Assembly (NCBI RefSeq): GCF_947499705.1
Contig: NZ_CANMPJ010000001.1
Coordinates: 2,267,501 to 2,331,500 of the forward strand
Source: an uncultured Erythrobacter sp.
GTDB lineage: Bacteria > Pseudomonadota > Alphaproteobacteria > Sphingomonadales > Sphingomonadaceae
Length of the DNA stretch: 64,000 nucleotides
Reading direction: 5' to 3'
The position numbers and the translations under genes are program-made. The notes under the pieces are model-generated. The model saw only the letters and a list, made by a program, of their open reading frames with translations, ran no database searches and was not told the origin of the DNA. Below, one piece after another: positions 35,875 to 59,925 of this stretch. Position 1 is the first letter of the stretch. Every line of letters begins with the position of its first letter.

Positions 35875-36237
35875 TCAGTCACCCTGTCCTAGGAAGTCTT
35901 CGCGAGCAGGGCTGAACGTGTCGATCAGCACGCCGGCCTCGAGACAGACAGCGCCATGATCAAGGTGCGGTGCGATGTAGAAGCAGTCCCCTGCCCCGAG
36001 CACGCGCTTTTCGCCATCGATGAAGACTTCAAATGAACCGCTTTCGACATAGCTCGATTGGCTGTGGCGATGTGCGTGCACCTGGCCAACGGCGCCTTGC
36101 TCGAACCACACACGCACGATCATGATCTCGGGACCATAACCGAGTATCTGGCGGCTAATCCCGTCTCCAAGATCTTCTTTCGGCGTCTCCTTTGCGACCA
36201 CAAAGGGCGGGCTCGCCTCGCTCACCAAAGTTGCCAT
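35875..36237 (-). CDS. kdgF: KdgF-like cupin (uronate linearising enzyme)
   Basis: A 120-residue single-domain cupin. The first cupin motif has His54 and His56 in QVHAHRHSQSSYVESGSFEVFIDGE and Gln60; the second has His91/His94 in FYIAPHLDHG. KdgF proteins of about this size bind metal through such residues and open 4,5-unsaturated uronate rings to the linear keto form (DEH from alginate). It lies between the PL17 lyase and the MFS transporter, exactly where that step is needed. No signal peptide is seen, so it works in the cytoplasm. The PL17 start follows after only 2 bases upstream. Confidence 0.87.
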   Translation of the reverse strand: MATLVSEASPPFVVAKETPKEDLGDGISRQILGYGPEIMIVRVWFEQGAVGQVHAHRHSQSSYVESGSFEVFIDGEKRVLGAGDCFYIAPHLDHGAVCLEAGVLIDTFSPAREDFLGQGD

Positions 36238-40696: not shown

Positions 40697-40788
40697 CCCA
40701 ACAATCCCCTCGTCCTATTTTTATGGATTTGGACTATACGTGTCAGGAAAGCGCTGTCAATCAATCTGGCATGTTATTTAGGTATTTT

Positions 40789-40799
40789 TTGTATAACCA
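40789..40799. promoter_or_regulatory. FadR-type GntR operator candidate upstream of PL6
   Basis: TTGTATAACCA matches the FadR-subfamily pattern TNGTNNNACNA. It lies 93 bp before the PL6 start, directly downstream of the GntR gene stop. A core of the same type (GGTATGAYA) occurs near both receptor genes, so the local GntR protein is the likely binder. Confidence 0.5.
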
Positions 40800-40805
40800 G
40801 TTGGC

Positions 40806-41546
40806 CTAGCCAATTTTCGCGGACGCGGTGAAGCGCTCACGGCTCTTGAGCACTTGCTCTTGCACCTCTTCGAGAGCCATCCGCTCGGTCGCATCGAGCA
40901 TTGCCTCGATCAGTCGGTGGAAGTGCTCCCGCATTGCATTTCGTGCACTGGCCGGATCGCGGTCGCGCAGCGCAAAGAAGATTGCTTCATGCTCGGCCGT
41001 TCTGGATGCTGCGTCATGTACACAGACTGCTTCGTAGGTCGCTTTGACGTCGGGCAGTTCTTCTCGCATCCGCCACAATGTCGTCACCGTGTGCATCATT
41101 GCTGCGTTGTTGGACGCCTCGGCAATTGTGCGGTGAAACTCTTCATCAGCCTCATTCGCAGCATCCTCGTCCCCAGTCCGCATTTGCTCGACCAGCTTTT
41201 CAAGGCGGGCAATACCGTCATCGGAAATATTGTGTGCTGCCAGCGCGGCCGCTTCTGATTCAATCAGTAGTCGCGCTTCAGTCACCTCGAACGCGCTTGC
41301 ACCGGGCAATGCCGTGCGACTTTCAGGTTCGCTCTCGCTGACATAAACGCCGGAGCCGGTCTTGATCTCCAACCGGCCAATCGCCTGAAGCGCGATCTCG
41401 GCCTCGCGGATGGTGACACGACTGACTCCCAAACGCTCGGCGAGCTCACGCTCTCCGGGAAGCCGCGTTCCAGGAGGAAACGCACCCTCTTCGATCAGAC
41501 CGGCAATCTGCTCGGCCACGGATTGGAAAAGTCGCTTACCGTTCAT
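40806..41546 (-). CDS. FadR-family GntR transcriptional regulator of the alginate locus
   Basis: The start is ATG 41546, with AAGGG 6 bases before it; the GTG at 41552 is less likely. The 246-residue protein has a GntR winged HTH (QIAGLIEEGAFPPGTRLPGERELAERLGVSRVTIREAEIALQAIGRLEIKTGSGVYV) and an all-helical FCD effector domain. The FCD domain has Glu/His residues around FHRTIAEASNNAAMMHTVTTLW and MREHFHRLIEAML, usual for metal or ligand binding. In uronate pathways such proteins are repressors released by a sugar acid. It sits between the receptor and lyase genes on the same strand. KDG or DEH is a likely inducer, which is inference. Confidence 0.9.
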   Translation of the reverse strand: MNGKRLFQSVAEQIAGLIEEGAFPPGTRLPGERELAERLGVSRVTIREAEIALQAIGRLEIKTGSGVYVSESEPESRTALPGASAFEVTEARLLIESEAAALAAHNISDDGIARLEKLVEQMRTGDEDAANEADEEFHRTIAEASNNAAMMHTVTTLWRMREELPDVKATYEAVCVHDAASRTAEHEAIFFALRDRDPASARNAMREHFHRLIEAMLDATERMALEEVQEQVLKSRERFTASAKIG

Positions 41547-41632
41547 GCTCACCCTTTGCTGCTGATCCGAGCTTACCTCTCCGCCCTGGGGAACTCCTTA
41601 AATACCACCTTGACGCCAGTCAAAGCGGTCGA

Positions 41633-41691
41633 CTGCCGCCGCAGACCCCCACCTGCGGCGGCAGCCAGGTGCGGGTCAGAACTTGACCCGC
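41633..41691 (-). terminator. two strong hairpins at the end of the receptor gene
   Basis: Read on the minus strand, GCGGGTCA (41684-41691 side) pairs with its partner at 41671-41678 across the stop codon with a 5-base loop. Then a perfect 12-bp stem, CTGCCGCCGCAG, occupies 41633-41644 and 41653-41664 with an 8-base loop. The second begins 12 bases after the stop. No long T-run follows, so strength is uncertain. Confidence 0.6.
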
Positions 41692-44600
41692 GCCCCTACG
41701 AAATAGCGAGGTCCATAAACCTGGATCGCACCGAAATCGTCCGGCGCCCCGCGGAAGTTCGTCCGCGGTTCGTTGAAAAGGTTGATACCTTCTGCCGTGA
41801 TGCGAACATTGTCGTTCAGTTCGAAGGAAACGCGTGCCTCGAACACACCGACATCGTCAACGTAGCGGATACGTCCAGGCGTTGAGATGAACTGCTGGAA
41901 ATACTCGCTGCGATATTTGTAGACGCCCTGGAAATCGAACGGACCGATCTCGTAATAGGCCTGCGCAGAAAGCACATGCTCAGAGAAACCGAACAGGTTT
42001 GAAGGCGGGATCAAACCGTTACTGACGCTGGTCGAACCATCGGCATTTACTGTTGTGATCGCGCCGAGTGTGTCGTCCTCAAACTCGAAATCCGAGTCCG
42101 CGTAGTTATAGCTCAGCTTGAAGCCCAACCCGTCCAGCGGCGCGGGAAGATAGTTGAAGCTGTGTGCAGCCGTGATTTCGATTCCGTAGATCGTGCTTGT
42201 ATTGTTGTTGGTGTCGATTGAGGTGACCAACAGGTCAGCGCTTTCACCGCCGACGTTGAAAGTTTCGAACAAGCCAACCGTTTCGAAACCACCGTTGAAG
42301 CTCTTGTAATAAGCGTTGAACGCCAGAATTGTATCGTCATTCGGATACCATTCGAGGCCAGCGTCAACATTCCATGAAAGCAGCGGATCAGTGGCCGGGT
42401 TACCGGTCGCAGAAACGTTGTTCACACCGCCCACCAGGGCCTCTTGCGGCGTCGCGAAATCATCATTGTCGTTGATGTTGATGATCCGTCCATCGCCCAA
42501 CTCGGATGGGTCCGGACGCGAAAGCGCGCGGTAGACTGCAAACCGCCCAAGTAGATCGGGCTGGAATTCTGCAACGAGGTTCAAGCTGGGCAGGAACTCG
42601 GTGTATGACGCAATAGAATTGCGTACAATCAGATTGTTCGGGTCTTCTACCAAAGCAAAGCTTGCGACGCCTTCGTCGTCGATCTCACTGATTTCAATAT
42701 CAAGCGCAGTACGGAAACCGCGGGAGCGAACCGAAGTGTTGACCACCCGGACGCCAACATTCCCGCGAACAGGCATGTCACCAAACTCGGTGTCAAAGTT
42801 TGCCTGCACATAGCCGGCCCAGCTGCGTTCGGTCACATCTGTGTTCTGGATCGAGTCGAAGTCACCGGTCGGGAAGATGATGTTCCCGTCGGCATCGAAT
42901 TCGAGGCCCGATGGATCTTCACGTTCCAGCACCCGCGCGATGCAGCGCGCATCGAATGTCGCGAAAGTGTTCGACGTGCCCAGCACATTGCCGTCCAGAT
43001 CGACATTGGTGATCAGCGCGTTGCCGCCGGATACGGAGGAAAGAAAGCCGCTTTCCGGGAAGGCCGTGCGACATTCGCGGTTAGCCACTGCCAGCGCGCC
43101 TGTTCCATCCGTATCGTTGTAGTTGTTCTCAAACCGGCTGGTGCCGTTCGAGGCCCCGGGAACGTCACGATATACGAGTTCCTGATACCGGGTACCGGCC
43201 TGGACCGAGTTGAAGAACCCATCCATTTCGTATTCGACATCGCCACGGACCGCCCAAACGCTGTTGAACCGATCCTGCTCAAGATCGGCACGAAGGCGCG
43301 GATCGTTGGCAAACAGATCGTAATTCGTCACGTCGAAATTCTGGGTGACAAAGTTGAGCGCCTGTGAACCATTCTGGCGGATCAGGACAGCCGTTTCAAC
43401 GCGGTCGTCTGTACCGTTTGTACGGCCCGCGTTAGGCGTTTGGTCGCTTTCAAACGCCTCTGGGAAGAACGGATTGCCGTTGGCGTCCGTATTGCCCTCA
43501 ATGCTTTCGCCATCCTCGGTGCGAAAGCGGATCTGCACCGCTTCTTCGATCCGCTGAGTACGCGAATAGGAAGCGTCGAGCGAGAGCTTGAGCCGGTCGG
43601 TGACTTGAGCGTCGAGTGACAGTCCGCCGCCGTAATATTCTTCTTCGCGCTCGAGATATTCGCTGACCGCTTCGACGCGCTGCTCGTTGGTGAACTGACG
43701 CAGCGCTCCGCTTTCGGTGAAGAGCAAATCAAAGCCTTCGATCCGGTTGGGATCGCCCGGCCCGTCAATCCGTCGGCCTTCGGCGAAGTTCAAATCGCTG
43801 CGCTGTTCGCGGAACAGGCGATTGGAATATTGGAAGTCGGCGTTGATATCGACGTCCGGGCTCGGCTTGAACTGGATCGCTGCGAACACGGAATCGCGCG
43901 TGTCATCGGTAATGTTTGAACGCAGCGCGTAGCTGTTGCGCGCGATCACGAAGGGCAGGTCAACGCTGCCATCCCGCAAGCCAGCGATAGTGCCACTGCT
44001 GGTATCGCAATTGCCATCGTCGAACACACCATCGCTGGTTGTGCTCGGATCGATTACGCAAGCGCGGATCGTGTTGGAGACGTTGGCCTCCTGTTCAGGG
44101 TTGGTCGACTCGTTCCGCTGAATGCCGATCGAGATACCCAACTCACCATCACCGACATTGAATTGGTCCACGTAGCTCAAAGTGCCGCGGAACCCGATAT
44201 CCTGGAACCGCTGATCGGAATCGATATCGAGGTTGTCCGGGTTGATATTCGCCTTCAGCTCACCCTGAATACGGCGCTTGCCATAGTCGATGGGGCGCAC
44301 CGTTTCGAGCACGATCTGTCCGGCAACGCCGCCTTCGATGTAGCTCGCGGCCTGCGTTTTGTAGATGCCGACCTTAGTGAAGAGCTCAGACGGGAATTGG
44401 CTGAAGTTCACCGACCGATCACCGCTGCCGTTGGTTGCTACACGGCCGTTGATAACCGTCGAACTCAGAAATGGACCGAGGCCACGAATCGAGATTTCGG
44501 TCGCCCCGCCCTGCTCTCGGTGAGAACCGGCGCCGGTCAGAGTTTCAAGCGCCTCACCGATCGACAGTGCAGGAAGATCGCCAATCTCATCCGCAGAAAG

Positions 44601-44828
44601 CGCATCGAATACCTCAGTGGCGTTGCGCTTTTCCTCAATCGAACCCTGAATGGTGGCGCGAATACCGGTAACAACAATACCGCCTTCACCCTCGGCGACG
44701 GTTGCGTCTTGGTCTTGATCTTCGTCCTGAGCCGCCGCGGGCGACGCAGCAACTGCTGTACCAGCCAACAGAGCTGCGGTGATCGAAATACGCGAAAGAG
44801 CGCCGCTACGGGCTGCGCGAAGTACCAT
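41676..44828 (-). CDS. TonB-dependent receptor of the alginate locus (first)
   Basis: The start is ATG 44828 with GGAGGGG 5 bases before it; the frame extends further but adds non-coding leader. The 1050-residue protein has a signal peptide (SRISITAALLAGTAVAASPAAAQ), a TonB-box-like segment GGIVVTGIRATIQGSIEEKRNATEVFDALSADEIGDLP and a plug with ISIRGLGPFLSSTVINGRV. A beta-barrel follows, ending GARVKF. It should import alginate oligosaccharides across the outer membrane. It is divergent from the second receptor and lies upstream of the GntR and lyase genes on the same strand. The two receptors differ in plug sequence and may differ in preferred oligomer. Confidence 0.92.
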   Translation of the reverse strand: MVLRAARSGALSRISITAALLAGTAVAASPAAAQDEDQDQDATVAEGEGGIVVTGIRATIQGSIEEKRNATEVFDALSADEIGDLPALSIGEALETLTGAGSHREQGGATEISIRGLGPFLSSTVINGRVATNGSGDRSVNFSQFPSELFTKVGIYKTQAASYIEGGVAGQIVLETVRPIDYGKRRIQGELKANINPDNLDIDSDQRFQDIGFRGTLSYVDQFNVGDGELGISIGIQRNESTNPEQEANVSNTIRACVIDPSTTSDGVFDDGNCDTSSGTIAGLRDGSVDLPFVIARNSYALRSNITDDTRDSVFAAIQFKPSPDVDINADFQYSNRLFREQRSDLNFAEGRRIDGPGDPNRIEGFDLLFTESGALRQFTNEQRVEAVSEYLEREEEYYGGGLSLDAQVTDRLKLSLDASYSRTQRIEEAVQIRFRTEDGESIEGNTDANGNPFFPEAFESDQTPNAGRTNGTDDRVETAVLIRQNGSQALNFVTQNFDVTNYDLFANDPRLRADLEQDRFNSVWAVRGDVEYEMDGFFNSVQAGTRYQELVYRDVPGASNGTSRFENNYNDTDGTGALAVANRECRTAFPESGFLSSVSGGNALITNVDLDGNVLGTSNTFATFDARCIARVLEREDPSGLEFDADGNIIFPTGDFDSIQNTDVTERSWAGYVQANFDTEFGDMPVRGNVGVRVVNTSVRSRGFRTALDIEISEIDDEGVASFALVEDPNNLIVRNSIASYTEFLPSLNLVAEFQPDLLGRFAVYRALSRPDPSELGDGRIININDNDDFATPQEALVGGVNNVSATGNPATDPLLSWNVDAGLEWYPNDDTILAFNAYYKSFNGGFETVGLFETFNVGGESADLLVTSIDTNNNTSTIYGIEITAAHSFNYLPAPLDGLGFKLSYNYADSDFEFEDDTLGAITTVNADGSTSVSNGLIPPSNLFGFSEHVLSAQAYYEIGPFDFQGVYKYRSEYFQQFISTPGRIRYVDDVGVFEARVSFELNDNVRITAEGINLFNEPRTNFRGAPDDFGAIQVYGPRYFVGARVKF

Positions 44829-45266
44829 TTTTACCCCTCCCAAGGTGTTTGAGGCACCATGGATAGAGACGCATTTCAGTAAGTCAACCAATCTGTCATA
44901 CCGATATGCGCCGAGTGTCCAGACCAATTTTGGAAGCAGTGCAGCCATTTGTCCGTCGCTTCATCAAGTTGCGCTTACCAATCAGGTATTTGTGGGCGAT
45001 TGAGCCTGATTTGAGTCAATTCCAGGCTGAGCATATGTGGCGAGAATGCCGCAGTTGGTACCCCAGACAGAGCGACACACGCCGCGCTATTCACAAGAAT
45101 CCGAACAAACTTGGCATTACTTTTCTCATATTTTCCGCTACTTATTAATCATAATACCAATTGGTATGATACTTTTCTAGTATAGGACTGCGTATCTGGT
45201 TGACTCATGTTTAGGCCAATATATGTTCGTAACCCTAAGACCAAAAAATGGTGATGGGAGAATCTG
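44829..45266. promoter_or_regulatory. divergent receptor intergenic region (438 bp) with operator candidates
   Basis: This region separates the two divergent receptor genes and holds no credible gene; the 80-codon frame at 44906 has no family features. Candidate GntR elements are TGTCATACCGA at 44894-44904, 66 bp before the first receptor, and the perfect palindrome at 45154-45167 near the second. The right half is AT-rich, as expected for a promoter. A segment ACCAATCAGGTAT at 44978-44990 is a weaker match. Confidence 0.6.
45154..45167. promoter_or_regulatory. perfect palindrome ATACCAATTGGTAT upstream of second receptor
   Basis: A perfect 14-bp palindrome lies 100 bp before the receptor start. 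With the following GATAC it also forms GTATGATAC, close to ExuR/UxuR- and FadR-type sites with ATTGGTAT halves. It is the best operator candidate for the local GntR protein at this promoter. Confidence 0.55.
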
Positions 45267-50638: not shown

Positions 50639-52090
50639 ATGGGTTTCCGCCGAGCCGAGGCAACCGGAGTTCACTTGGCCCTTTCGTTGAATAAGATTGA
50701 GCGGATGGCTCCCGATCAGGCGTCTCTCACGGCCGCCAAGAAGCTTATTAAGCCCGCAAAATGGCCGCTATTGCAAGAGGACGGCGATGGATTGATCTGG
50801 GGCGAATGCCAAGGGTCGGGCTCTACCCCTTATCGGGTCGCCGTTTCCGAATCCGATGCAGGATACAAATGCACCTGCCCCAGCCGCAAATTCCCCTGCA
50901 AGCATGCGATCGCGCTGATGTGGCTGCGCGCGGATGCGCTTGCGCCATTTGCCGCCGGAACACCGCCGCAATGGGTGAATGATTGGCTGTCTCGCAGGCG
51001 CGACCCTGCCAAAGGTCAGACAAATGACGGTAAGCCACCAGACAAATCCAAGGAGGGCCCTCACCCGTCGATCTCGGCGACGGCGCTCGAAAAGGAACCC
51101 GATCCAGCCAGCCCCGAAGCGATCGCCAAGGCGGAGGCTCAGAAAGCGCGCAACCGCGCCAAACGTGAAAAGCTCATCGAGGGCGGAATCGAGGCGATGG
51201 AGCAATGGATCGAGGATCAGCTCGAACGCGGGCTCACCGGCTTTGATCAGCGCGCGGTGAACGATTGCGACGTACTCGCCAAGCGTTTGGTAGATGCGAA
51301 GGCCGGGGGCCTTGCAAACCGCGTCTCCGCGCTACCTCCTTTGTTGTTCCAGATCGATGAGCAACACCGCCCGATACGCGCGGCGCGAGAGCTGAGCGCA
51401 TTGTATCTGATCGGGCAGGCCTACACCCGGCAGTCCAAACTCTCCGACGCCTTGAAAGAGGATGTGCGTCAAGCGGTTGGTTGGGCCATGACTCGCGAGG
51501 CTTTGCTCGCCGAAAAAGATCATCGTCGCGCCGATGGCGACTGGCGCGTACTGGCGACGTCCGACGAAGTGCAGGCCGATCGATTGCGGCGAATTGAAAC
51601 CTGGCTCGAAAGCACCAGCGAAGACCGGCGCAAGGCGCTACTCCTTGACTTCGTGCCTGTCAGCAGCGGCGCATCCGGCACCGTTTTCGAGCCGGGCGAA
51701 ATCCTGAATGCCGAGCTGGTGTTCTACCCATCGCCGGTGCCGCTGCGCGCCCAGATTGCCGATCATCGCGGCACCCGTACCGCCGACGGGACCTGGGACG
51801 GAGCAAGCGCAAGCTTGCCCGATGGGCTGGCCGAATGGAGAAAAGCGCTTGCGCAAAAGCCTTGGCTCGATGGCTTTCCAATAGCCACGAATGACGTCGA
51901 ACTGCGCAGCTCAAATGGCAAGCTGTTCGTGTGCAGCAACGACACAGCACTCCCCATTGCGCCGGGCTTTGAGGCGCAAGCTTTTCCTCTAACGGAAGTC
52001 GGCAAGATCAGCCTGTTTGGATTTTGGGACGGCTATGAGTTTGAGCCAAGTCTTGCCGCCACATCTCTGGGCGAATGGAGCGTATCATGA
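50639..52090 (+). CDS. SWIM zinc-finger protein of the MoxR-VWA cassette
   Basis: About 483 residues. The N-terminal SWIM finger is YKCTCPSRKFPCKHAIALMW with Cys78, Cys80, Cys87 and His89, a CxCx6CxH zinc motif that usually binds DNA or protein. A charged linker with many Lys and Arg follows, then a helical C-terminal region of unknown fold. The ATG at 50639 is used, but a TTG near 50672 preceded by GGAG would also leave the conserved start MAPDQASLTAAKKL intact. The stop overlaps the next gene by ATGA. It is the first of five tightly linked genes, probably the recognition part of the system. Confidence 0.83.
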   Translation: MGFRRAEATGVHLALSLNKIERMAPDQASLTAAKKLIKPAKWPLLQEDGDGLIWGECQGSGSTPYRVAVSESDAGYKCTCPSRKFPCKHAIALMWLRADALAPFAAGTPPQWVNDWLSRRRDPAKGQTNDGKPPDKSKEGPHPSISATALEKEPDPASPEAIAKAEAQKARNRAKREKLIEGGIEAMEQWIEDQLERGLTGFDQRAVNDCDVLAKRLVDAKAGGLANRVSALPPLLFQIDEQHRPIRAARELSALYLIGQAYTRQSKLSDALKEDVRQAVGWAMTREALLAEKDHRRADGDWRVLATSDEVQADRLRRIETWLESTSEDRRKALLLDFVPVSSGASGTVFEPGEILNAELVFYPSPVPLRAQIADHRGTRTADGTWDGASASLPDGLAEWRKALAQKPWLDGFPIATNDVELRSSNGKLFVCSNDTALPIAPGFEAQAFPLTEVGKISLFGFWDGYEFEPSLAATSLGEWSVS

Positions 52091-53499
52091 CACCCGATGC
52101 GATCCTTGGCACTATGATGCAGGGCACCGGGCGCCGGCCACTGAAGCTGGCAGGTGAGCTTGCAGAAGGGATGAGTCCCGAGGATCCGGTCAATGCCCCA
52201 CGACTGATGGCGCTCGCTGTACAAGCAACCCGCTTTGATACGCCGCCAAAGCCCGCAAGCTTCGATGAAGCGAAACCGAACCAAAGCGCCGAGAAGATCG
52301 TATCCGAAGCGGCGCGGCCGCTGATCCTTCGTCTCGTTACCGGCAAGGGCAATCCGGCGGATGACGTCGCTGCCTCTGCTGTCGCGCGGGCGATCGCCGC
52401 AAAGGGCTTGCGTCTTCATCCCTTCGACATGGCGAAGCTCGCCCCATTCGCCGCCAAGCATGCTGAAACACTGGGGCTGGACGCAGATCAGAGTGAACAG
52501 GCTGGCGCTGCCGACTGCTATTGGACTGGCACCCATACGCTGGATGCGGATAATTGGTCGCAGGCCACACCGGCGATAAAATCCCGTTTCATCGCCGAGC
52601 TGCGAGCAAACGACCCCGCTGGGGCACGAGCGCTGGTCGAAGAGCAATTGCCGCTCGAAAAGGCGCCGGTGCGTGTCCGCCTGATCAATGCGCTTGCGAC
52701 TGGGCTCGGCTCGGATGATCGCGAGTTTCTCGAAACTCTGACCAAAGATCGCGCTCCAACTGTCAAACAGGCTGTGACGCGGCTGCTTGCCCGCCTTCCA
52801 GGCACAGGCGCGGCCGCTGAGCAGGTCGAGGAGTTGGTCTCTCGCATCAAGCGTGGCACCGTCGGATTGCTTCGCAAGCGCACGACGTTGAAACTCGAAT
52901 TGCCTGCCACTGTGCGTTCTCCTGCTGCCGAAACCGACTGGCTGGCGCTCAACTTCGGTGCGGTTTCGAACCACGCTCTGGCCGAAGCATTTGGCATGGA
53001 GCCGGGCGCAATGCTGGAGGCAGCGCGCGACGATGGCCGCTTGGTCTGCGGGATCGCATTTGCCGCCTGTGTCGAGCGCGACTGGCCGCTGCTCTCAAAG
53101 ATTTCCACGAACCATGCGCAGGACATTTGGATCAGCTTCCTGCAGCCCGGTCTGAGTGCATTTGGCCTCGCTACCGACAGCGAGCGGCGTGATTGGATCG
53201 ACGCCGCCATCCCGCGAAGGTTCGATCCCGACCGGCTAGACACCTATTCACTTCAGCGCCTCTTTGATGCAATCGAAGGCCCTTTGCCGCTTGCGCAGGC
53301 CCGCGCGATTTTCGACGTCGCGCACCGGATCAGGCCCGACCAATCCGAGGCTTTGACGGCAGCGATTGCCCTGACCCCGGCGGGCGGTCTAACCGAATTT
53401 GCCCGAATACTCGAAAGCCGATCTCCCGAAATAACGCGCCGGGCAAGCCTGCTGGCCGAAACACTCATCCGTCTGGACGAAGGACCATCCAAACTATGA
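52087..53499 (+). CDS. DUF5691-type helical protein of the MoxR-VWA cassette
   Basis: Starting at ATG 52087 gives an ATGA overlap with the SWIM gene; the 52075 start lies within it. The 470-residue protein is soluble and helical, with HEAT-like repeats suggested by NDPAGARALVEEQLPLEKAPVRVRLINALATGLGSDDREFLETLTKDRAPTVKQAVTRLLARL. Proteins of this family (recognised as DUF5691 by content and by its constant neighbours SWIM, MoxR and VWA) have no known activity. It overlaps the AAA gene by ATGA. A scaffold or adaptor role for the ATPase is plausible. Confidence 0.75.
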   Translation: MTPDAILGTMMQGTGRRPLKLAGELAEGMSPEDPVNAPRLMALAVQATRFDTPPKPASFDEAKPNQSAEKIVSEAARPLILRLVTGKGNPADDVAASAVARAIAAKGLRLHPFDMAKLAPFAAKHAETLGLDADQSEQAGAADCYWTGTHTLDADNWSQATPAIKSRFIAELRANDPAGARALVEEQLPLEKAPVRVRLINALATGLGSDDREFLETLTKDRAPTVKQAVTRLLARLPGTGAAAEQVEELVSRIKRGTVGLLRKRTTLKLELPATVRSPAAETDWLALNFGAVSNHALAEAFGMEPGAMLEAARDDGRLVCGIAFAACVERDWPLLSKISTNHAQDIWISFLQPGLSAFGLATDSERRDWIDAAIPRRFDPDRLDTYSLQRLFDAIEGPLPLAQARAIFDVAHRIRPDQSEALTAAIALTPAGGLTEFARILESRSPEITRRASLLAETLIRLDEGPSKL

Positions 53500-54578
53500 C
53501 CGAACCGTCACTCCGCCGCTCCGCAGAGGAGACCTACGCCGACGAGCTTGAAGCCCTGAAACGCGGGGACGACCGGCAGCGGCCCGCCAACTGGAGCATG
53601 TCCCCGCAGGCAGTGGTCGACTATGTGATGGGCGGAACAGCGAAGGACGGAACGCCAATCAGCGCCAAATATGTCGGCAACCGGCGGCTCATCGAAACGG
53701 CGGTCGCGACATTGGCAACCGATCGCGCCCTATTGCTTCTCGGCATGCCGGGGACCGCGAAATCATGGGTCTCCGAACATCTTACGGCAGCTGTCTCAGG
53801 CACCTCGAACCGGGTGATTCAGTGTACCGCCGGGACCGATGAAAACCAAATCAGATATGGCTGGAACTACGCAGTCCTGCTGGCCAAGGGACCGAGCCAC
53901 GATGCCTTGGTGCGAACACCCTTGATGCGGGCGATGGAGGAAGGGACACTGGTTCGGCTCGAAGAACTCACACGGATGGGTTCCGATGTGCAGGACACGC
54001 TCATCACGGTCTTGTCGGAGAAAATGCTGCCGATCCCGGAGCTGGACGATGCCACATTCGCAAAGCCGGGCTTCAACGTGATCGCCACCGCCAACAACCG
54101 TGACAAAGGCGTCAACGAGCTGTCTTCGGCGCTCAAGCGGCGCTTCAACGTGGTGGTGCTGCCGCCGCCGGCAACCATCGAGGAAGAGACCGCAATCGTC
54201 ACCAAGCGCCTTGGCGATATCGGGACGAGCCTCGACCTTCCCGAGATCGCCCCAGCTGACCAAGAGATCGCCCGGATCGTGATGCTCTTTCGCGAGCTGC
54301 GCGGAGGACAGACGCTGGACGGCAAGCTCAAGCTCAAGACGGTCAGCGGCACCCTCTCGACAGCCGAGGCGATTTCGGTCGGGATCAATTCCTGGGCCGA
54401 AGCCGCACATTTCGGCAGCGGTGCGATGGACGCGCAGGCCATGGCAGCGAACCTCGTGGGTGCGATCGTCAAAGACCCGGTCAGCGACACGATGGCGCTG
54501 CAGGAATATCTCGAGAATGTCGTGCGCAAACGCAAGGGCTGGCAGGACCTCTACGGGGCTATCCGCGACGTGATGTAA
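53496..54578 (+). CDS. MoxR-type AAA+ ATPase
   Basis: A 360-residue AAA+ protein. Walker A is GMPGTAKS (residues 83-90, Lys89). The Walker B segment is TLVRLEELTRM, with Glu-Glu where Asp-Glu is usual. Sensor 1 is NVIATANNRDKGVNELSSALKRRF, which includes the arginine finger region. MoxR ATPases work with VWA proteins to remodel or mature other proteins. The overlap with the DUF5691 gene and a 4-bp gap to the DUF5682 gene show one operon. The Walker B change may slow ATP hydrolysis; Glu can still coordinate magnesium. Confidence 0.9.
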   Translation: MTEPSLRRSAEETYADELEALKRGDDRQRPANWSMSPQAVVDYVMGGTAKDGTPISAKYVGNRRLIETAVATLATDRALLLLGMPGTAKSWVSEHLTAAVSGTSNRVIQCTAGTDENQIRYGWNYAVLLAKGPSHDALVRTPLMRAMEEGTLVRLEELTRMGSDVQDTLITVLSEKMLPIPELDDATFAKPGFNVIATANNRDKGVNELSSALKRRFNVVVLPPPATIEEETAIVTKRLGDIGTSLDLPEIAPADQEIARIVMLFRELRGGQTLDGKLKLKTVSGTLSTAEAISVGINSWAEAAHFGSGAMDAQAMAANLVGAIVKDPVSDTMALQEYLENVVRKRKGWQDLYGAIRDVM

Positions 54579-54582
54579 GCCG

Positions 54583-56871
54583 ATGGACGAACGCGCGCAT
54601 CTCTTTGGCATCCGGCACCACGGACCGGGCTCAGCAGCAAGCCTGCTGGCGGCACTCGATGCGCTCGATCCGGCCATGGTGCTGATCGAAGGCTCACCGG
54701 AAGCCGAAGAGCTCGCGCACTTCGCCGGGCTTGAAGGGATGAATCCGCCGCTCGCCATTCTCCACTATCAGGCCGACAAACCCGCCAACGCGATGTTTGC
54801 GCCGTTCGCCGAGTATTCGCCCGAATGGCAGGCGTTGCGCTGGGCTTTGGCGCGCGGTCGCCCTGTGCGGTTCTGCGATTGGCCCGCCGCCAATGCGCTC
54901 GCATCAGAGCAGGATGATCTGACTGGCGAGGAACCGGTTGAGCCAGACGAAGCCGCCGCCGATGCGGACCTACCCCCACCGGTCGGCGGCGATCCGCTCG
55001 ATATGCTCGCACAAGTGGCCGGATACTCCGACGGTGAAGCATGGTGGAACGCCATGGTCGAAAGCAGCCGTCCCGGACCGGAGGTGTTCGAGGCCATCGA
55101 ATCTGCGATCACCGAGCTGCGCGAGGTCAGCGAAGCCGAAGACATTCTCGGCAAGGTACGCACCCAGCGAGACAATGTGCGCGAGGCCTTCATGCGATTG
55201 TCCCTGCGACAGGCTCTGAAAGACGAAGCGGGAGATGTCGCGGTGGTGGTCGGTGCATGGCATGTCCCCGCATTGCGAACCAAAGTCTCGATCAGCGAGG
55301 ATCGCAAGGCCATTCGCGGCCTCTCCAAGGTCAAGGTAAGCTCGGCCTGGGTGCCATGGAGCGACAGCAGGCTCGCCAGCGCTTCTGGCTATGGAGCCGG
55401 AGTGACGGCGCCGGGTTGGTATCGCCATCTGTGGCAATTGCAGCGCGATGGCACCGCGCTCTCGCCCGAAGCCTTTACCGCTGGATGGCAATCGCGCGTG
55501 TCTGGACTGCTCCGAGAAGAAGGTCACACCGCCGCATCAGCGAATGCCATCGAAGCTTCGCGCCTCGCATTGGCTCTGGCCGCGATCCGGGACGAGCCCG
55601 CTCCCGGTCTCGCCGAGATGCATGATGCGACGCTCGCGGCGATCTGCCACGGAGACGAGACCCCGTTGCGACTGGTCGAACGAAGATTGCTGCTTGGCGA
55701 GCGGATCGGTTCGGTCGACGAAGCCGTCCCGCAAATGCCGCTCGCGCTCGATCTGGAGCGCTGGCAGAAGAAATGTCGCCTCAAGCCGGAGGATCTCGAA
55801 CGCGAAATTGCGCTCGATCTGCGCAGCGATGCGGGCCTGCTCAAATCGACCCTGTTGCACCGATTGACGCTGATCGATGTGTGCTGGGGCCAGCTGATCG
55901 ATGCTGAGGCCGGGCGTGGGACGTTCCGCGAAACCTGGCGGCTTGCATGGACTCCATCGCTGGCCGTCCAACTCGCCGAGGCGCTGGTCCATGGCGTCAC
56001 GATCGAGCAAGCTGCGGCCAATCGCACCATGCAGCGAGCGCAGGAGCTAGGCGATGTCGCCGTGCTCGCGCAGCTCGTGAAATCTTGTCTGCTGGCCGAC
56101 CTGCCTCAAGCCGCCGAAGCGACCATTGCGCGCCTGCAGTCGGCGGCAATCGACAGCGGAGATGTCGTCAAGCTGATGCAGACTATCCCTACGCTGGTTT
56201 CGATCCTGCGATATGGCACTGCGCGGCCCATCCCCGAGGCGCAGCTTGCTGCACTGGTTTCGGCCATTGCCGTAGAGGTTAACGCAGGGGCCTTCACCGC
56301 TTCGGCTGAGATCGATCAAGTGGAGGCGCAGGCATTCGGCGCAGCCATGCGTGACTACGACCGCGCGCTGAGCCTGTTCGGGAATGACGATCTGAGCGAG
56401 ATTTGGGAGCGCGAACTGGCCGCGATGGCATCGCAGGACCGTTGCAGTCCATCGGTGCGCGGGCTTGCCTTGAGAATGGTGCATGACCGTGAAGTCTGGG
56501 TCATTGATGAAGTGGCTGCGACCTTGTCGCGCGCGCTCACACCGCCTGCCCCGCCAGCGGCAAGCGGTGCCTTTGTCGAAAGCTTCCTTTCGGACGGGGC
56601 GGAGGTTCTGTTGCAGGATCGCCCGCTGCTTGCGGCAATCGATGCTTGGCTGATGGGGTTGGATGAAGACACTTTGATCGAACTGCTGCCGATGCTGCGC
56701 CGGGGGTTCACAGCCTTTGCAGCGAGTGGGCGCGAACGCATTCTGGCTGCGCTGGGCCGGGGCGAAATCGCGCATGCAGGCAGCCAACAGAGTGCAGGCA
56801 AGGAGGCGTCACGCGAGTTCACCGAACAGGCTCTGCCCTTGCTCCGCACGATTATGGGGATCGAGCCATGA
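54583..56871 (+). CDS. DUF5682-type large protein of the MoxR-VWA cassette
   Basis: A 762-residue protein starting MDERAHLFGIRHHGPGSAASLLAALDALDPAMVLIEGSPEAEEL, the hallmark start of DUF5682. The early HHGPGS and IEGSPEAEEL plus later VVVGAWHVPAL resemble the TraB/ChaN-like layout, in which His and Glu residues form a putative metal site. The rest is helical and poorly conserved. No signal peptide or membrane helix is seen. It overlaps the VWA gene by ATGA. The enzymatic role, if any, is unknown; a hydrolase acting with the AAA/VWA pair is an inference. Confidence 0.8.
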   Translation: MDERAHLFGIRHHGPGSAASLLAALDALDPAMVLIEGSPEAEELAHFAGLEGMNPPLAILHYQADKPANAMFAPFAEYSPEWQALRWALARGRPVRFCDWPAANALASEQDDLTGEEPVEPDEAAADADLPPPVGGDPLDMLAQVAGYSDGEAWWNAMVESSRPGPEVFEAIESAITELREVSEAEDILGKVRTQRDNVREAFMRLSLRQALKDEAGDVAVVVGAWHVPALRTKVSISEDRKAIRGLSKVKVSSAWVPWSDSRLASASGYGAGVTAPGWYRHLWQLQRDGTALSPEAFTAGWQSRVSGLLREEGHTAASANAIEASRLALALAAIRDEPAPGLAEMHDATLAAICHGDETPLRLVERRLLLGERIGSVDEAVPQMPLALDLERWQKKCRLKPEDLEREIALDLRSDAGLLKSTLLHRLTLIDVCWGQLIDAEAGRGTFRETWRLAWTPSLAVQLAEALVHGVTIEQAAANRTMQRAQELGDVAVLAQLVKSCLLADLPQAAEATIARLQSAAIDSGDVVKLMQTIPTLVSILRYGTARPIPEAQLAALVSAIAVEVNAGAFTASAEIDQVEAQAFGAAMRDYDRALSLFGNDDLSEIWERELAAMASQDRCSPSVRGLALRMVHDREVWVIDEVAATLSRALTPPAPPAASGAFVESFLSDGAEVLLQDRPLLAAIDAWLMGLDEDTLIELLPMLRRGFTAFAASGRERILAALGRGEIAHAGSQQSAGKEASREFTEQALPLLRTIMGIEP

Positions 56872-58070
56872 GCAACGACAAGGAAGCCGGGGCTCACCCG
56901 CACGCCGATAGCGAAGATCGCATTCGGCGTTGGCGACTAGCTATGGGCGGTGACGAGGACAACAACCTTAGCGAAACCGATCAACGCATAGATCGCGCCC
57001 TATCGGCCCTCTATGCGCCGACCGACCCTGCCGGTGGATCGAAGCGCCGCAAGGGCGGGCTCGGCGCATCCGCACCCCGCGTTGCCCGGTGGCTCGGGGA
57101 CATTCGCGAATTCTTTCCTTCGCCCGTCGTCCAGGTAATCCAACGCGACGCCTTCGAGCGGCTCAATCTCAAGGCGATGTTGCTTGAACCGGAGTTTCTC
57201 GAAACACTGGAAGGCGACGTGCATCTCGTTGCCGATCTCATTTCCCTGCGCGGTGCGATGCCGGAGAAGACCAAGGACACCGCCCGAATGGTGGTCGCTC
57301 AGGTTGTCGAGGAATTGATGAAGCGGCTGGCGCACAAAACAACTGAGACACTTCGCGGCGCGATCAACCGCAGCCAGCGCACACGCCGTCCTCGCCCCTC
57401 CGATATCGACTGGCCCAGCACGATCCGGGCAAACCTGCACAATTGGCAGGAGGATTATCAGACGATCATCCCGGAAACGCTGATCGGGCACGGGCGCAAG
57501 AGCAAGTCCAAGGCAGACCTGGACGACGTCATCATGTGCGTGGACCAATCGGGCTCGATGGCGTCGTCCGTCGTCTATGCTTCGATCTTCTCGGCCGTGA
57601 TGGCGTCACTCCCGGTGCTCGAAACGAAGCTTGTCTGTTTCGATACGGCGATCATCGATATGTCCGATCAACTGGCGGACCCTGTCGATGTGCTGTTCGG
57701 TGTGCAATTGGGCGGCGGCACCGACATCAATGCGGCGCTCAACTATTGCGAAGGGCTAGTTACCTCGCCCGCCAAAACCAACCTGATCCTGATCAGCGAT
57801 CTGTATGAAGGCGGCAATGCCCGCGAGATGCTCTCGCGGGCTGGCGAGCTGGTGAATTCGGGCGTGAATCTGATCGTGCTTCTGGCGCTGTCCGACGATG
57901 GCCGCCCGTCATACGATCAGAACCACGCGCAAGCCTTTGCGGCGCTCGGCTGCCCGGTCTTCGCCTGTACGCCCGATCAGTTCCCTGATTTGATGGCCAA
58001 CGCGCTAGCAAAGAATGATGTCGGCGCCTGGGCCTCGGGCGAAGGGATCAGCGTGATCGCGCAGAAGTAG
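56868..58070 (+). CDS. VWA domain protein (CoxE-like) of the MoxR-VWA cassette
   Basis: A 400-residue protein. The first ~215 residues are charged and helical. The C-terminal VWA domain begins DDVIMCVDQSGSMASSVVYASIFSAVMASLP, with MIDAS residues in DQSGS (Asp226, Ser228, Ser230), then GGGTDINAALNYCE with Thr285, and FDTAIIDMS. A complete MIDAS site indicates metal-dependent partner binding. It should be the partner of the MoxR ATPase. It ends the five-gene cassette, convergent to the cytochrome c gene 39 bp away. Confidence 0.9.
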   Translation: MSNDKEAGAHPHADSEDRIRRWRLAMGGDEDNNLSETDQRIDRALSALYAPTDPAGGSKRRKGGLGASAPRVARWLGDIREFFPSPVVQVIQRDAFERLNLKAMLLEPEFLETLEGDVHLVADLISLRGAMPEKTKDTARMVVAQVVEELMKRLAHKTTETLRGAINRSQRTRRPRPSDIDWPSTIRANLHNWQEDYQTIIPETLIGHGRKSKSKADLDDVIMCVDQSGSMASSVVYASIFSAVMASLPVLETKLVCFDTAIIDMSDQLADPVDVLFGVQLGGGTDINAALNYCEGLVTSPAKTNLILISDLYEGGNAREMLSRAGELVNSGVNLIVLLALSDDGRPSYDQNHAQAFAALGCPVFACTPDQFPDLMANALAKNDVGAWASGEGISVIAQK

Positions 58071-58108: not shown

Positions 58109-58615
58109 TCAGGGGGCTGCATCTGTTCCCATAGCCTCACCCAGTCCGGCGGGACGATAGGTGCTCGCCAGATAGCTCGCTACATTCTGGCGATCTTTCG
58201 CAGGCAGCTCAGGCATTCCATGATCCTTCACCATCAGAGCAAGCATGGCGTCCCATTGCGGGCGAGTGAGGCGCTGTTGAGCGACCAGATTGAAGCTGTG
58301 GCACCCTCCACACACCGCCTCAACATAGGACCGCGTTTCATCGTCCGATACTTCCGCCAATCCATCACTTGGCGCTAGGACCGGAGCGGACTCGGCAGCC
58401 CTATCAGGGTCGAGTGGGTCGAACACTGACGCATAGTCAGGTGACTTAGGCCCGGACTTGGCCATAGCTTCGATCCGCGCAAGGCGTTCAGCACTTTCAA
58501 GCGGGATCCCATCGGCCCTCTCTCCGCTTTCGAGAAAGAAGAAGGCAAAGACACCCGCAGCGACCGCCAAGGCCGCGCTCAATCCCCAGCGCCCAGCTCC
58601 ACTCCCGCTGCTCAT
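58109..58615 (-). CDS. membrane-anchored mono-heme cytochrome c (SorB-like)
   Basis: A 168-residue protein with an N-terminal membrane anchor (residues ~11-28, GLSAALAVAAGVFAFFFL). One heme c motif CGGCH lies at 102-106, with Met134 in DHGMPEL as the likely sixth ligand. It overlaps the molybdoenzyme gene stop by ATGA. This layout matches bacterial sulfite dehydrogenase pairs in which the cytochrome takes electrons from the molybdenum subunit and passes them to the respiratory chain. It would sit on the periplasmic face of the membrane. Confidence 0.85.
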   Translation of the reverse strand: MSSGSGAGRWGLSAALAVAAGVFAFFFLESGERADGIPLESAERLARIEAMAKSGPKSPDYASVFDPLDPDRAAESAPVLAPSDGLAEVSDDETRSYVEAVCGGCHSFNLVAQQRLTRPQWDAMLALMVKDHGMPELPAKDRQNVASYLASTYRPAGLGEAMGTDAAP

Positions 58616-59844
58616 ACGGCGTACAGGGCTATGCGGTGCTGCATGTTGTTGAGGTAGCCTTTGGGATTCCAGCCCGGAACCGTTGCCGGCTGCATTTCGC
58701 CGGAACTATCGGTGGCCCTCGCCCACACTTCGAAATAGCCCGCTTGAGGCAGCGTGATCGCGGCACGCCAGTGCTGCCAGGCATAGGAATTGGCGGGCTC
58801 GCTCAGCTCTGCCTCTATCCAAGTCTTTCCGTGATCGATCGATACATGCATCGCGGCAACCGACCGGTCCCCCGCCCATGCATGCCCGCGCACTTCGAAC
58901 GGAGAGCGTGGCTCTACGCGGGCACCAGTTTCGGGAAAGGTGATCAGCGACCTCACCGGCAGAGACCCGATGATCTGCATGTCCTCATCGGCAACCTGTG
59001 TGCCGCGCGGCACAGGGTAGGCCGGGACGCGATAGGACTGTCCCGTCATCTTTGCACCGTCGTGCACCTTGTCGATGATCGAAATGCGCGTCAGCCATTT
59101 CTGCGAGCACGACCCGGGCCAGCCCGGCACCACCAGCCGAAGCGGATGGCCGTTATCCGCTGGCATAGCCTCACCATTGATCGACCATGCAATCAAATTG
59201 TTTGGATCGAGAGCTTTTTCGATCGGAACGCCGCGCGAAATCGGTTCTTTTGCCGGATCACCGGTCAGGTGGATATCCGCGCCGTAATGCGCGGTGTAGA
59301 CTGCCTCGGGGCGAACGCCAGCAGCCTTCAAAACGTCCGCCAGCCTGACGCCGGTCCATTCAGGGCAGGCAATCGCTCCGAACGTCCACTGATTGCCTGA
59401 CGCGCCGGGCGAGAAATACTTCCTCCCATTGCCCGCGCATTCCAGCTGAAGCTGCAGCGTGACGGTCTCGAACTTCTCTTTCAAGTCGGCGATGGAAAGC
59501 GTCAGCGGTGTGTCGACCAATCCGTCAATCGAGAGCGTCCATGCCTCGGGCTCCACATCGGTTGGGCTTGGCGGGAGCCCATTGTTGCGCACGAACATAC
59601 GGTGGGCTGGCGTCACATTATCGTCGAGCAAATGCGCTGGCGTTTCAATGTTGAGCGGCCTGTCGTTGAGGACCGTCAATCCCTCTTTCCCCGAGGCATT
59701 CTCCGATGCATGCGCCTTTCCAACCAGCCCCCCACCTGCTGATAGATGATCAATGGAGCCGATCGCAGCGATTGCGCCCACGCCGCCCGATGCAGTGAGA
59801 ATTGCCCTGCGAGTTGGCAATTTCGACTTGTCCTCAGTCGGCAT
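58612..59844 (-). CDS. periplasmic molybdenum sulfite dehydrogenase (SorA-like)
   Basis: ATG 59844 is used because GGAGGG precedes it by 5-6 bases and it starts a twin-arginine signal (LPTRRAILTASGGVGAIAAIG). The 410-residue protein is a sulfite oxidase-family molybdopterin enzyme: LQLECAGNGRKYF contains the molybdenum ligand Cys136, followed by WTGVRLADVLKAAGV and the dimerisation domain. It oxidises sulfite to sulfate in the periplasm. The downstream cytochrome c gene and the upstream aminotransferase and YeiH-like exporter suggest that sulfite comes from sulfur amino acids. Sulfoxide reduction (MsrP type) is less likely because of the cytochrome partner. Confidence 0.87.
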   Translation of the reverse strand: MPTEDKSKLPTRRAILTASGGVGAIAAIGSIDHLSAGGGLVGKAHASENASGKEGLTVLNDRPLNIETPAHLLDDNVTPAHRMFVRNNGLPPSPTDVEPEAWTLSIDGLVDTPLTLSIADLKEKFETVTLQLQLECAGNGRKYFSPGASGNQWTFGAIACPEWTGVRLADVLKAAGVRPEAVYTAHYGADIHLTGDPAKEPISRGVPIEKALDPNNLIAWSINGEAMPADNGHPLRLVVPGWPGSCSQKWLTRISIIDKVHDGAKMTGQSYRVPAYPVPRGTQVADEDMQIIGSLPVRSLITFPETGARVEPRSPFEVRGHAWAGDRSVAAMHVSIDHGKTWIEAELSEPANSYAWQHWRAAITLPQAGYFEVWARATDSSGEMQPATVPGWNPKGYLNNMQHRIALYAV

Positions 59845-59925
59845 TCGTTCCCTCCGAAGAAGCTGGTCTACCGGATCGTCTCTGTCCCGCACGACTGCCT
59901 CTGCCATGTCCCTCCGCAAGCGACA

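Follow-up and report, generated by a model that had tools for sequence, protein, structure and literature searches.

A YehL-type MoxR-VWA gene cassette of an uncultured Erythrobacter sp. encodes a DUF5682 protein with a predicted TIKI-like fold

A five-gene cassette was analysed in a 64,000-nucleotide stretch of the genome of an uncultured Erythrobacter sp. (contig NZ_CANMPJ010000001.1, positions 2,267,501 to 2,331,500; this whole stretch is here called the window). The cassette encodes, in this order, a SWIM zinc-finger protein, a DUF5691 protein, a MoxR AAA+ ATPase, a DUF5682 protein and a CoxE-type VWA protein. It is a variant of the known, uncharacterised YehL-type systems and, judged by sequence, it is a sister form (A-type) of the yehL-yehM-yehP-yehQ genes of Escherichia coli (B-type). 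What is new is the structural lead for DUF5682, the N-terminal domain of which (residues 1-290) appears from modelling to have a fold with proteins of TIKI/Ere/ChaN type as nearest assignable solved relatives. We tentatively propose, giving it somewhat less than an even chance, that the cassette is a YehL-type ATP-driven MoxR-VWA remodeller coupled to its own TIKI-fold enzyme, with SWIM and DUF5691 proteins as adaptor. The MoxR and VWA motifs of this proposal and their co-encoding with DUF5682 are read from sequence; the TIKI/Ere/ChaN-like domain and the HEAT-like arm of DUF5682 are predictions.

The DUF5682 protein (gene 4; 54583..56871, +; 762 aa) matches Pfam PF18934 with 709.8 bits (cut-off 26) and is 24% identical to E. 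coli YehM over 746 aa (E=3e-32, blastp). At least 576 confirmed relatives were obtained when named genomes of bacteria and archaea were scanned with an alignment of DUF5682; the best 80 loci were analysed, and the window protein together with those of 44 of these loci formed the A-type alignment (45 rows) that was the input to structure prediction. The predicted whole-length model has a mean predicted local distance difference test (pLDDT) score of 88.4. Residues ~430-728 are predicted to resemble HEAT-type helical repeats, although such matches are common and little informative. Helical-repeat proteins dominated the whole-length fold search, and the absence of a TIKI-type protein among the matches listed there is not counter-evidence; because of this dominance the N-terminal domain was modelled separately (pLDDT 88.8; predicted template modelling score, pTM, 0.88). 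In VIA-align a Tetrahymena complex IV subunit, with three entries, headed the list for the 1-290 model (Z 9.7-10.0); neither GumN nor ChaN profiles assigned this chain to a family (for ChaN, within the best 60 of 330 rows). There followed ChaN (2g5g; Z 8.4, 160 aa, 4.8 A), HopBA1 (5t09; Z 7.6), EreC (6xcq/6xcs; Z 7.2/6.7), BcR135 (3b55/2rad; Z 7.0/6.7), a succinoglycan biosynthesis protein (2qgm; Z 6.9) and two toxin-domain entries (6a7h/6a8j; Z 6.0/5.6), which from their residue numbers we infer to be the RRSP toxin domain; below these stood unrelated rows, namely RosC (Z 5.4) and the remainder (Z 4.5 or less). EreC and 2qgm are presumably of TIKI type as well; Ere enzymes are mentioned in PMC6254334. 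ChaN, HopBA1 and BcR135 (2G5G, 5T09, 3B55) and the RRSP toxin domain are placed in the TIKI superfamily, with a common core sheet, by PMC6254334.

Several results weigh against this assignment of the fold. Foldseek returned no match below E 0.001 for the 1-290 model, and according to the fold-comparison tool Z values of 7-8 may reflect just a common arrangement. In hhalign the N-terminal domain reached E ~0.06 with ChaN, against 0.15-0.39 for the control profiles (MoxR, VWA, DUF5691 and SWIM), with an end-to-end alignment (residues 2-229) in one of two runs, and the comparison with GumN/TraB gave nothing meaningful (E 0.24-0.38). An Ere set, for which one protein was found in 40 genomes, was left unused in this comparison. 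Since the positive control, GumN/TraB versus ChaN, was also weak (0.013), the hhalign test is to be considered insensitive. The best match of the DUF5682 profile in a sequence search of the Protein Data Bank (PDB) had E 0.39. As only ChaN slightly exceeds the control profiles, the claim of a TIKI fold rests on fold and motif together. Among the ChaN-like proteins collected from the phylum of the window, those of L126-L134 have an apparent C-terminal PDZ-like part, as seen from DegP/RseP PDZ proteins among the matches of the profile.

The motif part of the argument comes from a set of residues conserved in the aligned DUF5682 rows. The putative active site comprises a first GxxH motif, G9-I10-R11-H12 (54607..54618, +), and E36 (54688..54690, +), to which are added an R200-E201-x-x-M204 motif (55180..55194, +) and a second GxxH motif, G224-A-W-H227 (55252..55263, +). 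Twelve residues are invariant in all 45 A-type rows (G9, R11, H12, E36, E81, D99, R180, R200, E201, M204, G224 and H227), and nine of them, E36, E81, D99, R180, R200, E201, M204, G224 and H227, are also invariant in all 15 rows of a joint A- and B-type (A+B) alignment. H12 is kept in 12/12 of the A+B rows that are uncut at this point, and G9 is replaced by Pro or Asp in 6/12. The catalytic set of TIKI proteins is given as two His and two Glu with an Arg nearby (PMC6254334). The invariants of eight GumN/TraB rows (G59xxH62, E88, R257-N258 and G280xxH283) follow the same order as in DUF5682 with near-equal spacing, and 11 ChaN-like rows show GE-x-H, E86 and GxGH. From the first His to the Glu there are 24 residues in DUF5682 (H12-E36), 26 in GumN/TraB and 28 in ChaN, and from the Arg to the last His 27 in DUF5682 and 26 in GumN/TraB, which has RN..W where DUF5682 has RE..M. 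Judged by order and spacing, the N-terminal domain of DUF5682 thus shows the GxxH...E...R...GxxH set of GumN/TraB. The initial annotation had suggested a possible metal site in the DUF5682 protein, a suggestion which the invariant His/Glu/Arg/His set strengthens, given its position on a predicted TIKI/Ere/ChaN-like fold.

Against an active enzyme stands the Glu of the GExH form, the first of the two in the 2His/2Glu set, which in DUF5682 is replaced by Ile (38 of the 45 A-type rows) or Val (7 rows). A toxin of the superfamily without the catalytic set is reported not to have acted as a peptidase on the test substrate (PMC6254334), and with this precedent the loss of the first Glu means that DUF5682 could be catalytically dead. 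The GumN/TraB consensus is GTVH, likewise without a Glu at this position, and so the Glu of GExH does not define the whole superfamily. On the predicted fold three of the four catalytic positions and the Arg would thus be present, with the fourth missing as in the GTVH of GumN/TraB. We therefore speak of a TIKI-like fold in DUF5682 and of an active site that is plausible, which falls short of a proven TIKI hydrolase.

The two genes surrounding that for DUF5682 supply the proposed motor. Gene 3 (53496..54578, +; 360 aa) encodes a MoxR AAA+ ATPase of the YehL subfamily, with matches to AAA_5 (117.7 bits; cut-off 22) and bpMoxR PF20030 (31.7 bits; cut-off 27). Its identity to E. coli YehL (40% over 351 aa, E=1e-74, blastp) makes this protein a far closer relative than RavA (just 24% over 101 aa, E=0.04). 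Pattern matches among 78 MoxR homologues recovered Walker A in 77, Walker B in 71 and the sensor in 74. Gene 5 (56868..58070, +; 400 aa) encodes the VWA protein, which matches VWA_CoxE PF05762 over residues 154-373 (172.3 bits; cut-off 26.4), is 33% identical to YehP over 365 aa (E=6e-73, blastp) and is marginally similar to ViaA (E 0.003). The motifs of the metal ion-dependent adhesion site (MIDAS) are retained in its homologues, DxSGSM in 75/76 and GGGT[ND]I in 76/76; the strict pattern for the final MIDAS Asp fits 39/76, and this Asp is present in the window protein. In all 76 homologues 9 residues or fewer lie beyond the match to the family model, leaving no further domain at the C-terminus. 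MoxR plus VWA had been read in the initial annotation as an indication of protein remodelling, and the families together with the Walker and MIDAS motifs support this as a probable function.

In NorQD, the VWA finger inserts into the MoxR pore, target binding has been suggested for the MIDAS, and a twisting motion powered by ATP has been proposed to admit metal into the enzyme (PMC13036017). By analogy, the pore of a MoxR hexamer would take the VWA finger, the VWA MIDAS would grip DUF5682, and ATP turnover would open, metal-load or switch the DUF5682 active site, which might then cleave some substrate of the cell by hydrolysis of an ester or peptide bond. The SWIM and DUF5691 proteins, or SWIM with DUF4132/WGR proteins in B-type loci, would serve in recognition or as a scaffold and deliver the substrate. 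The site of action would be the cytosol, no export signal having been seen by eye, and the role would be one of maintenance or stress rather than anti-phage. The broader statement, that in almost all E. coli and across many phyla a cytosolic TIKI-fold hydrolase is metal-loaded or opened by an AAA+ machine with SWIM/DUF5691 or SWIM/DUF4132 adaptors, is put forward as a possibility with the balance of probability against it.

Alternatively, the MoxR-VWA pair could be a dedicated metal-insertion or maturation chaperone, of which DUF5682 would be a part as an inactive TIKI-fold docking platform, and the client metalloenzyme would be encoded elsewhere. NorQD and other MoxR-VWA pairs do mature enzymes (PMC13036017, PMC3893208), DUF5682 has lost the first Glu of the hydrolase set, and A-type cassettes have no constant additional client-like neighbour, the commonest flank gene clusters, mostly without annotation, being present in 12, 6, 6 and 5 of the 80 loci. 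This reading is less easily reconciled with the His/Glu/Arg/His set, which a mere scaffold would not have to retain and which is invariant in 45/45 A-type rows and in every A+B row that can be read there; we regard the reading as unlikely, though the most serious of the alternatives.

That the five genes belong together is shown by the arrangement of the cassette and by its conservation. Five same-strand open reading frames (ORFs) were confirmed at 50639-58070 (+), and the cassette is present as it had been described, with coordinates, strand and Pfam names all in agreement. All five proteins exceed the curated cut-offs of their Pfam families; none has an above-cut-off match in NCBIfam. Genes 1 and 2 overlap by 16 nt, 2 and 3 by 4 nt, and 4 and 5 by 4 nt, with a gap of 4 nt between 3 and 4, and a promoter and terminator scan 5' of gene 1 found nothing. 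Family calls at the 80 loci, made with models built from the window proteins and relatives, placed all five families in 71, and the zinc finger could be read in 70 of these 71 complete loci, L074 being cut ahead of the finger. The order SWIM-DUF5691-MoxR-DUF5682-VWA on one strand is retained in 66/80 loci, which together with the overlaps and short gap bears out the earlier view of the five genes as one unit. The constancy of DUF5682 itself is uninformative, the scan having been made with it; that of the other four families is informative, and the five-gene association exceeds chance. Nine loci are incomplete (L035, L041, L054, L055, L065, L075, L081, L089 and L094). A contig end truncates L035, L054, L055, L075 and L081; L089 and L094 miss a DUF5691 match alone; and L065 has neither SWIM nor VWA on a 7-kb contig, the SWIM-model match there being its DUF5691 ORF. 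L041, an A-type locus, has no VWA gene despite 10 kb of downstream DNA, which counts against the proposed machine, as do two of the B-type stretches described below. The SWIM gene is divergent from MoxR-DUF5682-VWA in four loci, plus one cut locus. Genes for MoxR, VWA and DUF5682 accompany one another in nine named phylum-level groups, and the yeh locus of E. coli has all three as well.

The first two genes would encode the adaptor. The SWIM protein (gene 1; 50639..52090, +; 483 aa) matches Pfam SWIM PF04434 with 29.1 bits (cut-off 19.6). Its finger, CxCPSRKFPCKH, and the preceding WG/GSG/PY run are invariant in an 18-row alignment that includes the window protein, and the exact finger motif is found in 73/76 of the best-scoring SWIM-model ORFs; the three misses include a DUF5691 ORF and an ORF that is cut. 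The SWIM model included two fusion proteins and so scored DUF5691 ORFs too, an effect which among the best matches touched only L065, besides the fusions themselves. The DUF5691 protein (gene 2; 52075..53499, +; 474 aa) matches Pfam PF18944 with 89.6 bits (cut-off 27), is weakly conserved (mean column identity 26% in 22 rows) and looks helical by eye from its sequence. SWIM and DUF5691 are fused as a single ORF in two genomes, an Isosphaeraceae metagenome-assembled genome and Phytohabitans maris (L047 and L095; ORFs of 977 and 949 aa); because of these fusions DUF5691 is likely to be the partner of the gene 1 SWIM protein. Profile comparison gave a weak hhalign match between DUF5691 and DUF4132 (probability 13%, E 0.002, 210 columns) and nothing between YehQ and DUF5691. 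The window SWIM protein and YehQ were aligned by hhalign over 27 columns, the finger only, and no kinship beyond the finger was detected by this method.

In E. coli K-12 the genes yehL, yehM, yehP and yehQ form a comparable run, after yehF, yehH and yehI. In the DUF5682 maximum-likelihood tree the 45 A-type rows are split from 9 B-type rows at 100/100, so that the window clade and that of the yeh B-type proteins are separate. B-type loci were compared in eight other stretches from genomes of the window's phylum, two of them from its genus. In 8/8 of these, MoxR-DUF5682 adjoins YehI- or WGR-type proteins, and 6/8 have MoxR-DUF5682-VWA runs; the other two (L105, L106) have no VWA gene beside DUF5682, L105 ending shortly after. 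In one B-type genome (G029, L099 6565-8917) DUF5682 is encoded by two overlapping ORFs, one for the N-terminal domain and one for the helical arm, either a split or a frameshift. Extra YehI-family genes, up to two per stretch (compare E. coli yehH/yehI), lie beside B-type loci at L098 10692-14465, L099 12067-15858 and L106 11219-18987. A YehL group is among the seven MoxR subfamilies of PMC3893208, which calls it unclear what MoxR proteins do in vivo. Of the remark in the initial annotation that no experimental description of the cassette is known, the main part stands, none having been found, and what has to be amended is that this type of locus is known through E. coli yehLMPQ and the YehL subfamily (PMC3893208). 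In searches of the PubMed Central (PMC) library, no paper found assigns a function to yehL, yehM, yehP or yehQ, and none was found that mentions DUF5682 or DUF5691. DNA of yehM is found in 5284/5426 complete E. coli genomes (in 5166 with at least 80% of its length in one place) and the yehL-yehM-yehP-yehQ run in 5301 of 5426 (5162 with at least 80% in one place), and 5289/5291 of the yehM places are chromosomal. A genome-reduced E. coli strain lacks yehI to yehQ within a larger deletion, so loss of the locus is possible (PMC10652928).

The neighbours of B-type loci raise the possibility of a DNA-damage response, in which SWIM and WGR/DUF4132 proteins would provide a link to nucleic acid or ADP-ribose and MoxR-VWA-DUF5682 would remodel or remove proteins on DNA. 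The WGR and YehI/DUF4132-type neighbours would fit such a role, as would the Deinococcus DUF4132 gene DRA0166, which with its operon is strongly raised upon depletion of the DdrO repressor and is discussed alongside the WGR protein DR2173 (PMC8533742). However, these Deinococcus genes have no demonstrated place in a DUF5682 locus, the window cassette has no adjoining WGR or DUF4132 gene, and no repair gene was recognised in the recurrent, mostly unannotated flank clusters; we consider a DNA-damage role improbable. Among the A-type loci, one neighbour recurs in 6/80, and its two scanned members (L067, L070) match DUF4132.

The distribution of the cassette bears on a further alternative, that it is an anti-phage or other conflict system with MoxR-VWA as trigger and DUF5682 as toxic effector, like the vWA-MoxR ternary systems. 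The initial annotation had likewise suggested an effector system, perhaps stress- or defence-related. The window genome (3.67 Mb, two contigs, 99.99% complete by computed estimate) has a single DUF5682 gene. Counting this genome, DUF5682 is present in 5/120 relatives, the other four having one A-type (G023) and three B-type copies, and in 10/200 genomes of the phylum, where besides the window genome the A-type occurs in four and the B-type in six, G314 carrying both. This patchy spread is the main point that agrees with the effector or defence idea of the initial annotation, and the intermixing of phyla in the DUF5682 tree points the same way: the window protein groups with those of Asaia, Rhizobium, Methylosinus and Acidobacteriaceae, and on starred branches at least five changes of the Pseudomonadota label are needed, 12 rows falling outside every group. 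The pattern suggests transfer, with the warning of the tree tool that it is no proof. DUF5682 was found in 21/72,556 plasmid records, the 20 listed all being at least 180 kb, and the window MoxR protein scores above the bpMoxR cut-off, which would also fit a conflict role. Phage records contributed 1/50,697, a 14-kb sequence that has no annotation and came from human faeces, and IMG/VR gave 0 confirmed relatives among 38 pattern matches.

Further evidence on defence comes from PADLOC. Within the cassette the sole match is a weak one (PDC-S62, E 8e-4) to residues 29-94 of gene 1, genes 2-5 having none at E 0.01. For the flanks there were 531 eligible ORFs from 76 loci, of which 122 were drawn (57 loci) and 121 scanned, one ORF of L035 being omitted because its length is not divisible by three; for the controls we chose 20 stretches with round-number coordinates in genomes carrying either cassette type and took 122 of their 293 ORFs. 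At a threshold of E 1e-15 the flanks matched 15 PADLOC models and the controls 6, these counts being of model names and of members per model rather than of proteins, and the ORFs coming from a crude longest-ORF caller with spurious ones included. Although the flanks exceed the controls, eight of the 15 models are of methyltransferase/IIG type and have a single member each, which may be the same protein, three are RtcR-type regulators, and mad3 is matched by flanks (3) and controls (2) alike, so that no clear enrichment of defence genes is judged to exist and the idea of a defence island is rejected. High architectural variability is described as a mark of conflict systems (PMC7159879), whereas here effectors are not swapped, as the constant C-terminus of the VWA homologues indicates. 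With one weak PADLOC match, no effector swapping, scant phage presence, near-fixation of the sister locus in E. coli and flanks not clearly enriched, an anti-phage role is disfavoured, and the conflict reading is in our opinion very doubtful. Given the patchy species spread and the higher flank number, a niche-specific role, or a conflict role in some lineages, is possible.

The surroundings of the cassette were also examined. Upstream, on the opposite strand, lies an acyl-CoA ligase gene (family match below the NCBI cut-off), and downstream a SorA/SorB-like sulfite dehydrogenase pair (58109-59919; family matches below the NCBI cut-offs), the SorA-like protein of which has best full-length matches just 33-37% identical in 60 genus relatives. 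A recent clean insertion was considered by seeking both flanking genes in 61 genus genomes (own included) and by comparison with a relative that has no DUF5682 match and an acyl-CoA ligase 83% identical (G053, L139). No empty site could be defined from this comparison, because no other window ORF past position 36000 matched the surroundings of the ligase in G053, and this candidate was rejected. Elsewhere in the window, 36240-44948 has the look of an alginate-type utilisation locus, with TonB receptor genes near two polysaccharide lyase genes (one of Chondroitinase B type, one of heparinase/alginate lyase type), and a 1388-aa ORF at 22840-27006 with a YadA head and stalk repeats encodes a trimeric autotransporter adhesin.

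The sister operon is near-universal in E. coli, yet none of the papers found in the PMC library gives it a function. The predicted fold and candidate active-site residues of DUF5682 make the cassette testable, the question being whether MoxR-VWA activates a TIKI-type enzyme, and if this were true metal-inserting AAA+ chaperones and TIKI/Ere hydrolases would become linked. The two groups are not known to act jointly, and no description is known of an AAA+ (MoxR-VWA) machine built around a TIKI-superfamily enzyme.

The cassette can be compared with several known systems. As in NorQ-NorD, CoxD-CoxE and RavA-ViaA, a MoxR AAA+ gene is accompanied by the gene for a MIDAS-bearing VWA partner, although similarity to RavA and ViaA is marginal in sequence. 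None of these three systems is known to include DUF5682, SWIM or DUF5691. The vWA-MoxR-VMAP systems (eLife 2020, PMC7159879) resemble the cassette in combining MoxR and vWA with another conserved protein in a single operon and in their bpMoxR model, which the window MoxR just passes. Their order, VMAP-MoxR-vWA (PMC7159879), differs from that of the window, PMC10910872 links them to CRISPR loci, and as described there they carry VMAP, not DUF5682, and no effector domain has been added to the window VWA protein, in which VWA_CoxE ends at residue 373 of 400. The other genes of the window cassette gave no Pfam match for VMAP-C/iSTAND, the Pfam holdings for those components being unchecked, and the main text of PMC7159879 nowhere mentions SWIM, YehL, YehM, TIKI, EreA or TraB. 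With the TIKI/TraB/Ere/ChaN superfamily the N-terminal domain of DUF5682 shares a predicted parallel beta-sheet core, at a sequence similarity below significance, and it departs from these proteins in its large HEAT-like C-terminal arm and its tie to an AAA+ machine. The E. coli counterpart is yehI-yehL-yehM-yehP-yehQ, where MoxR, DUF5682, a CoxE-type VWA and a SWIM protein likewise lie in one gene run; there the SWIM gene stands last and in the window first, the two SWIM proteins can be aligned solely across the finger, and YehI/DUF4132 and WGR proteins take the place in yeh and other B-type loci that DUF5691 has in the window.

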